A stretch of 10,962 bases of DNA from an uncultured Mucispirillum sp. (lineage in GTDB: Bacteria; Chrysiogenota; Deferribacteres; Deferribacterales; Mucispirillaceae), in contig CAMEZN010000022.1 of NCBI GenBank assembly GCA_945947845.1, forward strand, positions 1 through 10,962. The letters are read 5' to 3'. Position 1 is the stretch's first letter, and each line of letters begins with the position of its first letter. The translations under genes were made by a program, and so were the position numbers. Below the pieces are notes generated by a model, which was not told the origin of the DNA, searched no databases, and was given only the letters and a program-made list of their open reading frames with translations. Shown here piece by piece: positions 5,491 to 8,734 of the stretch.

Positions 5491-7329
5491 TCACTTTTCA
5501 CTGTTATTTGATATTATCTCACTATTATTTCTATTAGTAAGCATCATAATTAGCATAGGGAAAATAATTATCAAATAATATGTATACCTTGAATATACAA
5601 TCGGTCCTAATAAAACTGTAATCGTATATCCAAGCAATATTAAAAGCAGTAATACATTTCTATATTCCTTTTTATAAATAAAATAAATAAAAGTAAATAA
5701 AAATATATAAAAGTAAAAACTTTGATTATAAAAATAAAAAATAAAAAATGAAAAGTATCTATCATTGAGTACATTACCAACATCTTTATAAAATTGTTTA
5801 TTTTTCGTATCAATAATATCATCAACTTTTAAATTTAAACTTCCTACATTTACAATCCAAAGCGATGGATACCCATTCCATGTAATGTTACTAAACAAAT
5901 TCCATAGTGGTGCACTCATAAGTAAAACAGAATTTAAATAAGTATTTGGATAAGTAATACCTATTTTAAAATATTGAATAATACTATCTTTATTTAAAAA
6001 AACATCTGTTTGAAACCCATTTATTATAGGATCAGATAAATGAGATTGATATTCTGTTAAATTTTTAGAATTTATAACTGATTCTATGTACTCTTTATTC
6101 TCATCAGATAAAGTATCATACTGATATTTATATACTCTTGCAAGCTGCTGTGCTGGTAAAGATAAACTTGCTCTTTTATTTCCTTCACTGGCATGAGTAA
6201 CAAAAACCAAGATTTCATTGAAACTAATATATAATATGAAAATAATTGTAAAAATAAAAAATATTTGTTTTCTATAATTTTTTACCACTAATAAAAATAC
6301 AGGCAATATCATAAATAATGCATAAATCATATTATGCCTTAATAAACAAACTGTGATTGTTATTAAGAGATATTTGATAATAAATCTTTTGTTCTTAAAT
6401 AAATCAGGTGTATATATTAATATTAAAGTTTCTGTTAAAAAAATGATAAGCATAATAAAAAATAATATATCTTTTGCAATTACGATTGACCAAAGAGGAT
6501 GAATAGGAAATAATGCACAATACAATATTAATAAAATATAGATGATATCATTTATCTTAAATAAGTTATATATTTTATATAACATATATGCAAAAGCAAA
6601 AGATAAAGGAATCATTTGCATTAATAAAACATATAATGCCAAACTTAATATTCCATTATTCGTAAGCTTAAATATAAACATTGTAAAATAGTGTATTAAT
6701 GTAGATAAAACTGGATGATGACTACTAAATTGTCCTACAAATACCTGCAATATTTGATTTGATACATCATGAACAATATATCCAGGATATAATAAAATAA
6801 AATACGGAAGCCAGCATATTAATATAAAAAGCCATACTATATATAAAGAATTATATTTCTTTGGTATTATTACCTTATAACTAAATATATTGTTGAAATA
6901 ATATGGCACTCTATCATATATAAATAACACAAACCCAAAACATATAAACCAAAGAGAAGGAATATGTGATAAAGATTGAATAAAAGCCTGTAATGAAAAA
7001 TCAGGATATTTTCCACTTGCAGAACCCCACAAATCTTTACCAATAGCATTTCCTTCATAATAATAACTTAAAATTATTGTAAATGTTAAAAATAATCCTA
7101 AAATAGCACTTGTAATTATCAGTCTTCTATTTATACCACTCTTTAATAGATTTAATGTATAATCAATTAATAAATACACTGCTGCAATTACAAAAAGAAA
7201 TGTTATATTCACATAAAATTCTGACTCTATATGCTTTAATTTAAACAGATATTTTAATGAGTATAATGTATATATTGTTAAAATTATTTTTATAAATAAT
7301 AAGTAATTTGTTTTAAAAAATTCTTTCAT
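5491..7329 (-). CDS. Large polytopic membrane protein, DUF6020/GT-C-like; putative GtrX-type transferase
   Basis: A 612-residue, very hydrophobic protein with about 13-14 predicted membrane segments: roughly eleven up to residue 375, an extracytoplasmic loop of about 145 residues (380-525), and three more at the end. The sequence resembles the DUF6020 family: LLYPGYIVHDVSNQ with D188 in an early loop, SSHHPVLSTLIHY (202-214), an AKD at 285-287, RHN at 331-333 and SLPAQQLARVY (390-400). The layout (acidic residue in the first large loop, soluble domain near the C terminus) is that of GT-C glycosyltransferases using lipid-linked sugars. Its start overlaps the gtrA-like stop as ATGA. By position it would be the specificity-determining transferase of a Gtr module; substrate and acceptor are unknown. 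Very AT-rich, in places under 15% GC. Confidence 0.75.
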   Translation of the reverse strand: MKEFFKTNYLLFIKIILTIYTLYSLKYLFKLKHIESEFYVNITFLFVIAAVYLLIDYTLNLLKSGINRRLIITSAILGLFLTFTIILSYYYEGNAIGKDLWGSASGKYPDFSLQAFIQSLSHIPSLWFICFGFVLFIYDRVPYYFNNIFSYKVIIPKKYNSLYIVWLFILICWLPYFILLYPGYIVHDVSNQILQVFVGQFSSHHPVLSTLIHYFTMFIFKLTNNGILSLALYVLLMQMIPLSFAFAYMLYKIYNLFKINDIIYILLILYCALFPIHPLWSIVIAKDILFFIMLIIFLTETLILIYTPDLFKNKRFIIKYLLITITVCLLRHNMIYALFMILPVFLLVVKNYRKQIFFIFTIIFILYISFNEILVFVTHASEGNKRASLSLPAQQLARVYKYQYDTLSDENKEYIESVINSKNLTEYQSHLSDPIINGFQTDVFLNKDSIIQYFKIGITYPNTYLNSVLLMSAPLWNLFSNITWNGYPSLWIVNVGSLNLKVDDIIDTKNKQFYKDVGNVLNDRYFSFFIFYFYNQSFYFYIFLFTFIYFIYKKEYRNVLLLLILLGYTITVLLGPIVYSRYTYYLIIIFPMLIMMLTNRNNSEIISNNSEK

Positions 7330-7775
7330 TTTATATACTCCCCACTTTTAAATGTCCATATTTTTTGACCTGCAAAATTAATCAAGGTAAATAAGACTTG
7401 TGCAAATAATATGGCTATCTGCTCTATTACACTTATTGATAAACATGAATTCATTATTGAAAATAGATAGAGAAATAATCTATGAGTTAATGTAAAAGCT
7501 ATTAAATAACTGAATAAAATAACTGTAAAAAACTTTACCATTGATGAAAATATTTTACAGTTTGATAAGAAAGTAAACCTTCTGTTTAAGAAAAAACCAA
7601 GAACTGCTGCACTAAATGTGCCTGTAAATGAAGATACATAATACCCTGCATGCAGTAAATTATATATTGAATATGTTACAATCATTGCAAAAATAGTATT
7701 AAATAATCCTATTAATAAAAATATCATAAATTCTTTATTAAGAAAGAAAGTTATAATATTATTGATCAGCTTCAT
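7326..7775 (-). CDS. gtrA: GtrA-like flippase family membrane protein
   Basis: A 149-residue protein with four membrane segments (about 15-38, 46-64, 80-103 and 115-136), the size and topology of the GtrA/DPMS family. The family motif GFFLNRRFTF (60-69) after the second helix and NFAGQKIWTF (133-142) after the fourth are present. In phage and bacterial gtr clusters GtrA is thought to flip undecaprenyl-phosphate-sugar from the inner to the outer face of the cytoplasmic membrane. Here it sits between the GT2 enzyme, whose stop overlaps its ATG as TAATG, and the polytopic transferase candidate, whose ATG overlaps its TGA. An AAGGGA ribosome site lies within the end of the GT2 gene. The sugar cannot be read from the sequence. 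Confidence 0.85.
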   Translation of the reverse strand: MKLINNIITFFLNKEFMIFLLIGLFNTIFAMIVTYSIYNLLHAGYYVSSFTGTFSAAVLGFFLNRRFTFLSNCKIFSSMVKFFTVILFSYLIAFTLTHRLFLYLFSIMNSCLSISVIEQIAILFAQVLFTLINFAGQKIWTFKSGEYIK

Positions 7776-8710
7776 TATTTATTTCCCTTTTTAAATATAG
7801 TTACCATATTTAAAAATATTTCAAACTGCTGCCTGCTGTTTTTCCTTACACTGTCTAATATTAATGATACACTAAATGATAATGCACTAACTACAAATAA
7901 GGCAGTTGATACAATTAATGATGGAAATTTCGGCACAATCCCTGTTTGTGCATAATCTATAAATACTGGTATAAAAAATAAAACTGATAATATTAAAAAT
8001 AATACTGCAAATATTGAGAAAAATTGAAATGGTTTATAAAGACGGTATAAATTAAGTATAGTCATTATTACTTTAAAACCGTCTGTATATGTATTTAATT
8101 TAGACTGGCTGCCTTCTGGTCTATCTCTATATTGAATAGGTATTGATACTATTGAGAAGTTTTTATCAAGAGCATGTATAGTCATTTCTGTTTCTATTTC
8201 AAAACCTTGGGACAGCACTGGAAATGTTTTTACAAATTCGTAGCTGAATGCTCTGTATCCTGTCATTATGTCTTTGATATCACTTTTAAAGAATCTGTTT
8301 ATAAGATTTTTTACAAGCACATTGCAAGAATTATGAAATGGGCGTTTATTCTCTGTAAAATATGTAGAAGATAATCTATCTCCTATTACTAAATCCCCCC
8401 CCCATTCTAATATAGCGGAAACAAGTTCTGGTGCTGCTTCTGCTGGATATGTATCATCACCATCTACTAATATATAACATTCTGCTTCTATATCGCGAAA
8501 CATACTCCGCATAACATTACCTTTACCCTGCTTTCTTTCATACCGCACTATTGCACCATTTGCTTTTGCAATCTCTGCTGTTTTATCTTTGGAATTATTA
8601 TCATATACATATATGACAGCCTCAGGTAAAGATTTTTTAAAATCCTGTATAACTTTTCCTATTGTTAATTCTTCATTATAGCAGGGAATTAATACTGCTA
8701 ATTTATCCAT
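7775..8710 (-). CDS. gtrB: GtrB/DPM1-like family 2 glycosyltransferase with in-frame G9 tract
   Basis: A GT2 enzyme expected to transfer a sugar from a nucleotide donor to undecaprenyl phosphate at the inner membrane face. Seen in 311 residues: LIPCYNEE (7-14), YDNNSKD (36-42), KQGKG, the nucleotide/metal-binding VDGDDTYP with D83-G-D85, GDRLSSTYF, DIMTGYRAF, QGFEIETEM, YRDRPEGSQSKL, then two C-terminal helices (about 228-250 and 263-285) as in GtrB. The start is the ATG at 8710: GTG at 8722 is in frame, but GTGGAG there is the ribosome site, 6 bases before the ATG. Codons W103-G104-G105-D106 contain nine consecutive G. As sequenced the gene is in frame (ON). It is first in the operon, 96 bases after the TPR gene. 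Confidence 0.9.
   Translation of the reverse strand: MDKLAVLIPCYNEELTIGKVIQDFKKSLPEAVIYVYDNNSKDKTAEIAKANGAIVRYERKQGKGNVMRSMFRDIEAECYILVDGDDTYPAEAAPELVSAILEWGGDLVIGDRLSSTYFTENKRPFHNSCNVLVKNLINRFFKSDIKDIMTGYRAFSYEFVKTFPVLSQGFEIETEMTIHALDKNFSIVSIPIQYRDRPEGSQSKLNTYTDGFKVIMTILNLYRLYKPFQFFSIFAVLFLILSVLFFIPVFIDYAQTGIVPKFPSLIVSTALFVVSALSFSVSLILDSVRKNSRQQFEIFLNMVTIFKKGNK
8395..8403 (-). repeat. gtrB: Homopolymeric G9 tract (C9 on plus strand), likely phase-variation site
   Basis: Nine consecutive C on the plus strand, read as TGG GGG GGG GAT (W-G-G-D) on the minus strand. It is the only G/C homopolymer of this length in a window dominated by A/T. Losing one G gives TGG GGG GGG ATT TAG, a stop after residue 106; gaining one gives a stop after residue 111 (G-F-S-N-R-R tail). 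Both products lack the second half of the enzyme and its membrane anchor. Poly-G tracts in surface-glycan genes are established slipped-strand switches in Campylobacter and Helicobacter; that this one switches is inference. Confidence 0.8.
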
Positions 8711-8734
8711 AAAACACTCCACTTATTAATATTT

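Follow-up and report, generated by a model that had tools for sequence, protein, structure and literature searches.

The window analysed here, a 10,962-nt stretch of an uncultured Mucispirillum sp. (phylum Deferribacterota; contig CAMEZN010000022.1 of assembly GCA_945947845.1), carries on its minus strand a gtrB-like glycosyltransferase gene with an uninterrupted run of nine G (G9) in its middle, and this tract is very probably a slipped-strand contingency switch. The tract, the premature stops in both alternative frames, the natural occurrence of open and split alleles, the selection on both flanks and the excess of similar tracts throughout the genus were directly observed. From these data we infer that the gene may switch reversibly within a clone, and that the enzyme would provide a lipid-linked sugar for a surface glycan, whose variation could benefit the cell. 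The tract belongs to a larger set, since Mucispirillum has a poly-G/C phasome with both promoter and coding tracts, unreported in the literature searched. The window is part of a metagenome-assembled genome (MAG) of 1.93 Mb in 336 contigs, which is 75% complete.

The G9 tract of gtrB and its natural alleles

The tract appears as an uninterrupted C9 at positions 8395-8403 of the plus strand, corresponding to G9 on the coding strand of the minus-strand gene, in DNA with a GC content of 0.303 over the window and 0.304 over the gene. It is the only C9 of the window, and none of 200 dinucleotide-preserving shuffles yielded such a run. In the 311-residue numbering of the protein, the G9 begins in phase 1 of codon 103, spans codons 103-106 and encodes W-G-G-D, directly ahead of LVIGDRL; in an alignment of 34 sequences, (V/I)GDRL is conserved and the tract segment varies in both sequence and length. 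When the unaltered sequence is read in the two alternative frames, stops are reached within 4 to 9 codons, giving products of 106 residues (ending in GGGI) or 111 residues (ending in GGGFSNRR). Since both frames stop at once, a one-base slip in either direction would cost the protein half of its catalytic domain together with the C-terminal hydrophobic stretches. The initial annotation, made from the letters alone, had described a nine-G run in a region of about 30% GC, its mid-gene position just before VIGDRL, and stops after residue 106 or 111 for both single-base slips; all of these statements proved exact, and natural truncated homologues of precisely these lengths exist, with 106 residues in P0123, P0124, P0125 and P0131 and 111 in P0122.

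A close copy of gtrB was found in three of the ten genus genomes, namely the window MAG, Mucispirillum schaedleri ASF457 (G007) and G009. The frame is open in the window MAG, whose allele has G9. In ASF457 the tract is a G11, and precisely at this point the gene breaks into two frames, of 112 and 215 residues. Among the proteins of M. schaedleri form, P0056, P0067 and P0074 have 2, 3 or 4 glycines at the tract and are otherwise identical (P0056 occurs on 104 contigs and P0067 on 258), and the truncated P0121 agrees with all three over the 100 residues that precede the tract. Nine of the 120 short homologues listed, out of 4092 found with the short ASF457 piece, carry the tails predicted for slippage, GGI or GGGI in six and FSNRR or FSSRR in three; a tenth homologue ending in GGGI, P0161, is only 75% identical. 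Open partners with identical residues up to the tract were found for several truncated forms (P0122 with P0023, P0123 with P0066 and P0127 with P0097). The ratio of nonsynonymous to synonymous substitutions (dN/dS) was 0.062-0.068 upstream of the tract and 0.036-0.080 downstream of it, with the second piece of the split ASF457 gene counted in, and these values indicate that both flanks are under purifying selection.

The locus combines several of the features by which contingency loci are recognised, i.e., a repeat of unstable length within a gene, slips that abolish the product, variation among isolates and over-representation in the genome. The comparison between strains proposed in the initial annotation gave tract lengths that differ between species and frame states that differ between assemblies, and this variability, taken together with the genus-wide excess of tracts, supports the phase-variable reading advanced there. 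We propose that replication slippage would alter the length of the G tract. With G9 the frame would be open and the full polyprenyl-phosphate sugar transferase made, and a slip of one base would leave a fragment of 106 or 111 residues, from which the second half of the catalytic domain would be missing, as would the hydrophobic stretches of the C-terminus. When gtrB is shut, the steps performed by GtrA and by the product of the third gene of the cluster would proceed without activated sugar, and the surface glycan would lose a side group. The population would then consist of cells with and cells without the side sugar; the glycan concerned is most likely the O-antigen, and the benefit could be an escape from phage or antibody.

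Poly-G/C tracts across the genus Mucispirillum

Runs of at least 8 G or C number 22 in the window MAG, 49 in ASF457 and 18 in G009, and the commonest length is 9 in each of them (18 of 22, 33 of 49 and 10 of 18, respectively). The ten genus genomes together contain 185 runs of exactly 6, 15 of exactly 7 and 306 of at least 8, where a geometric decay would give 1.3 for the last class. In the control, 30 genomes of other families of the order, 7665 runs of 6, 1256 of 7 and 251 of at least 8 were counted, versus 246 predicted. The control sum excludes 14 more distant genomes, in which runs of at least 8 never exceed runs of 7, with one tie (G054). Nine of the ten genus genomes have 18 to 49 runs of at least 8, the exception being G005 (57% complete) with 2. 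An excess is also present in G011, from another genus of the family (250 runs of 6, 11 of 7 and 73 of at least 8), and a small one in four genomes of genus g2 (54, 7 and 14, respectively). The contrast between G011 and G005 might make the gain and loss of the phasome traceable.

By manual reading, the 49 tracts of ASF457 were assigned to an open frame of the G strand (20), to a frame break (6), to a strict promoter layout (7) or to a loose or unclear one (16); for the 22 tracts of the window MAG, the corresponding numbers are 8, 1, 8 and 5. The promoter layout, TTGACA-C7+-TAWAAT, occurs at 50 sites in nine of the ten genus genomes, at 3 in G011 and at none in the other 48 genomes, and the reversed pattern was found once. 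The spacer measures 15 bp at 35 of the 50 sites and the run is C9 at 37 of them. Promoter-spacer poly-C loci include L216, L217, L220, L221, L223, L224 and L230 in the window genome and L183, L193, L195, L204, L205, L208 and L209 in ASF457. Changes of tract length at such loci would alter the spacing between the -35 and -10 elements, as in meningococcal porA. Two other ASF457 tracts, L210 (2958-2967) and L214 (3026-3034), lie just before an ATG, where a ribosome-binding site would be expected, and L214 precedes a VgrG-like gene.

To describe the genes concerned, 69 proteins or protein pieces, encoded at a tract or next to one in three genomes, were scanned, those of G009 being partly covered; a Pfam match at E 1e-4 was obtained for 45 and none for 24. 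The matches include glycosyltransferases (families 2 and 9, GtrII and RgpF), MBOAT acyltransferases, sulfatase-fold proteins, FdtA, molybdopterin oxidoreductases, a chemotaxis receptor, histidine-kinase proteins, and Big_2, PKD, VgrG-like and M66-peptidase-like proteins. Somewhat unexpected were uvrB (with the tract 173 bp upstream), an amino acid kinase and a GNAT protein. The initial annotation had suggested a genome-wide search for tracts of at least 8 and asked whether they cluster in surface genes: the excess is strong in the genus and many tracts lie in surface-glycan genes, although some are found in respiratory and further genes. Opposite frame states in two species were seen for four shared tracts, in gtrB, a Big_2 protein, an MBOAT gene and a molybdoenzyme (the Big_2 pair being matched via its downstream flank only, and the MBOAT copy of the MAG lying near a contig end), and the remaining shared tracts are mostly of equal length between species. 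Two restriction-modification loci also carry tracts. A DNA methylase gene with an in-frame G9 adjoins a type III Res subunit gene (L227:1809-6400, minus strand) and is a candidate phase-variable methylation system, and in ASF457 a type I specificity subunit (Methylase_S; L180:2368-3563, minus strand) is split at a G8, both pieces matching the family.

Several dimethyl sulfoxide (DMSO)-reductase-like molybdoenzymes have in common a twin-arginine translocation (Tat) leader (SRRSFLKG...GCSKD...IIY) that ends in a G tract. They match the DMSO/selenate reductase subfamily model at 103.6-185.4 bits, far under its cut-off of 777.7. In ASF457, the DNA of one leader copy is 98% identical to that of two paralogues and 87% to that of a third, and for L177 and L188 the similarity ends at the tract. 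A DNA search for this leader (L185:3030-3210, minus strand; loci L251-L279) returned 29 copies in 6 of the 15 family genomes, 24 of them with a readable motif (22 with a G8-10 run and 2 without) and five others partial. The 22 tract-bearing leaders, from six genomes, are in frame in 8 cases and out of frame in 14, which is close to the one third in frame expected of free-running switches. In the ASF457 reference, gtrB and three of the four tract-bearing reductases are out of frame. It seems fairly probable that a large and mixed phasome varies both the surface glycans and the respiratory repertoire of Mucispirillum, the latter through this near-identical and apparently exchangeable Tat leader. 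Loy et al. 2017 (PMC5285517) list a DMSO-reductase-like system, which may or may not be one of the tract-bearing enzymes, among the inflammation-raised genes; the main text of that paper makes no mention of phase variation, homopolymer or slipped. The passages of the literature on phase-variable molybdoenzymes that were retrieved gave only the cofactor-synthesis genes moeB and mobA.

Alternative explanations for the gtrB tract

Several observations weigh against a switch in gtrB. The evidence consists of assemblies and public protein sets, from which reversibility within a clone is a further step, and protein tails reveal the frame and not the DNA, tract lengths beyond the directly read genomes being deduced from them. 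The conservation of the tract among orthologues, a comparison also proposed in the initial annotation, holds for ASF457 and fails in G009, where gtrB is intact, a synonymous-type codon interrupts the run and there is no tract, so the switch is not universal. The mismatch-repair gene mutS1 scores above the family cut-off in seven of the ten genus genomes, is present as a fragment in G000 and G005, and was not found in G002 (86% complete); since it is kept, the tracts would be expected to be more stable than those of bacteria devoid of mismatch repair. An explanation of tract instability by lost mismatch repair is, for the same reason, unsupported, mutL lying outside the search. The remaining seven genomes of the genus, two of them less than 90% complete, gave no close gtrB copy, and in ASF457 the third gene of the cluster is also interrupted (L144:7332-9170; 453 and 143 residues versus 612), away from any G tract and, most simply, by an in-frame stop. 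These last two findings fit an irreversible decay, in which the tract would be no more than a site prone to frameshifts, and the split copies, ASF457's among them, would be pseudogenes of a dying cluster, with no switching back. We regard this decay as unlikely, because in ASF457 the part of the split gene beyond the tract still has a dN/dS of 0.05-0.08, the truncated alleles break at the tract in both predicted frames and have open partners, and a genus-wide excess of runs of at least 8 would not be expected from it.

The loose or unclear tracts (16 of 49 in ASF457 and 5 of 22 in the MAG) and the few tracts in or beside housekeeping-type genes (the amino acid kinase, and uvrB at 173 bp) would be in agreement with a mutational bias, by which the lineage merely lengthens G runs and the tracts are passengers without a role. 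Such a bias is very improbable given the rarity of runs of 6 and 7 (185 and 15) relative to the 306 longer ones in the ten genomes, and the precise placement of 50 tracts between promoter hexamers against a single site with the reversed pattern. Homopolymers are error-prone in sequencing and assembly, and the window is one contig among the 336 of an incomplete MAG; an artefact is nevertheless scarcely credible, as G9 preserves the frame of a conserved protein, a 99% identical protein (P0002) comes from another contig, and the split product of ASF457 represents 54 member sequences on 14 contigs. Long homopolymers can also induce transcriptional or translational slippage, and by programmed frameshifting of polymerase or ribosome the split alleles would yield some full enzyme, in a graded output. 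We give almost no weight to this possibility, since neither the tract length nor the frame offset is conserved, alleles occur in the open state and in either shut state, and G009 is tractless; it could moreover operate simultaneously with genetic switching.

The gtr cluster, known systems and significance

The proposed switch concerns the first gene of a gtrB-gtrA-DUF6020 cluster on the minus strand. The gtrB-like gene (7775..8722) is open in the window MAG over 315 residues from a GTG at 8722 or 311 from an ATG at 8710, and the best database homologues have 311 residues, which fits the ATG; those named, at 92% identity, belong to Candidatus Mucispirillum faecigallinarum and Mucispirillum sp. 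Its product matches Glycos_transf_2 (Pfam PF00535, E 4.5e-16), its sole match to a solved structure at E 0.001 is a dolichol-phosphate mannose synthase (5mlz, E 3.2e-13), and its hydrophobic C-terminal stretches can be read directly off the sequence. The tentative identification as GtrB draws on these Glycos_transf_2 and DPMS-like matches, the GtrB-specific models all scoring below cut-off. Membership in AglJ (TIGR04182) was rejected, the 204.5 bits obtained versus a curated NCBIfam cut-off of 325 denoting a related non-member. The adjoining gtrA-like gene (7326..7775, minus strand) encodes a membrane protein of 149 residues with a GtrA_DPMS_TM domain (PF04138, E 4.1e-12), a putative flippase and the neighbour expected of gtrB in gtr clusters. 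The third gene (5491..7329, minus strand) encodes a multi-pass DUF6020 membrane protein of 612 residues (PF19484, E 1.2e-12), a candidate cluster-specific third transferase. This protein is 46-48% identical to its ASF457 and G009 counterparts, the values being 86-92% for gtrB and 76% for gtrA, and the neighbouring TPR protein is also divergent between species (62%). A phage origin of the gtrB-like gene was rejected, with zero matches of 1001 bases across the gene in 50,697 phage records. The best 80 of its 588 relatives in a contig database, from which records very near the window genome were possibly excluded, are 60-68% identical and come mostly, by title, from gut Bacillota MAGs, which hints at gene exchange.

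In Campylobacter, lengths of 9 or 10 dominate the poly-G/C phasome, at 53% and 26%, according to the PhasomeIt paper (PMC6321876). The phasome of Mucispirillum resembles it in its modal run of 9, its many in-gene tracts, a genome of ~30% GC and the same slip logic. It differs in belonging to another phylum, in the prominence of promoter-spacer tracts and molybdoenzyme leaders, and in the retention of mutS1, a gene that Campylobacter is not known to have. For Neisseria meningitidis, PMC3639595 describes a poly-G within the frame of the glycosyltransferase gene lgtG and another between the -35 and -10 elements of porA. Both layouts, lgtG-type coding and porA-type promoter, are found in Mucispirillum; its modal promoter spacer of 15 bp, in contrast, sets it apart from Neisseria, and the tracts may affect expression. 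The gtr operons for O-antigen glucosylation in Salmonella, as presented in PMC2909390, comprise genes for a flippase (gtrA) and a bactoprenol glucosyltransferase (gtrB) together with a third gene that is variable, and their expression is phase-varying, Dam methylation and OxyR acting on the promoter. Unlike them, Mucispirillum has the order gtrB-gtrA-third gene with DUF6020 as the third, its candidate switch is a slip tract within gtrB, and the O-antigen is a putative target.

No report of poly-G phase variation in Mucispirillum or its phylum was found in the literature searched, most subscription journals being outside its scope; a survey that names Deferribacteres does so, in the passages seen, without poly-G (PMC4060949). 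The single gtrB tract follows a known mechanism, and the phasome with its respiratory branch is the more surprising part. M. schaedleri ASF457 belongs to the altered Schaedler flora of gnotobiotic mice (PMC3983311). If dozens of its genes switch randomly, colonies or mice with an identical strain might not be alike in their surface sugars, restriction-modification and, perhaps, respiration, and the ASF457 reference genome would be one frozen combination of switch states. Choosing the terminal reductase at random would amount to bet-hedging where inflammation shifts the electron acceptors of the gut. Poly-G phase variation would thereby extend to another phylum, in bacteria that keep mutS.
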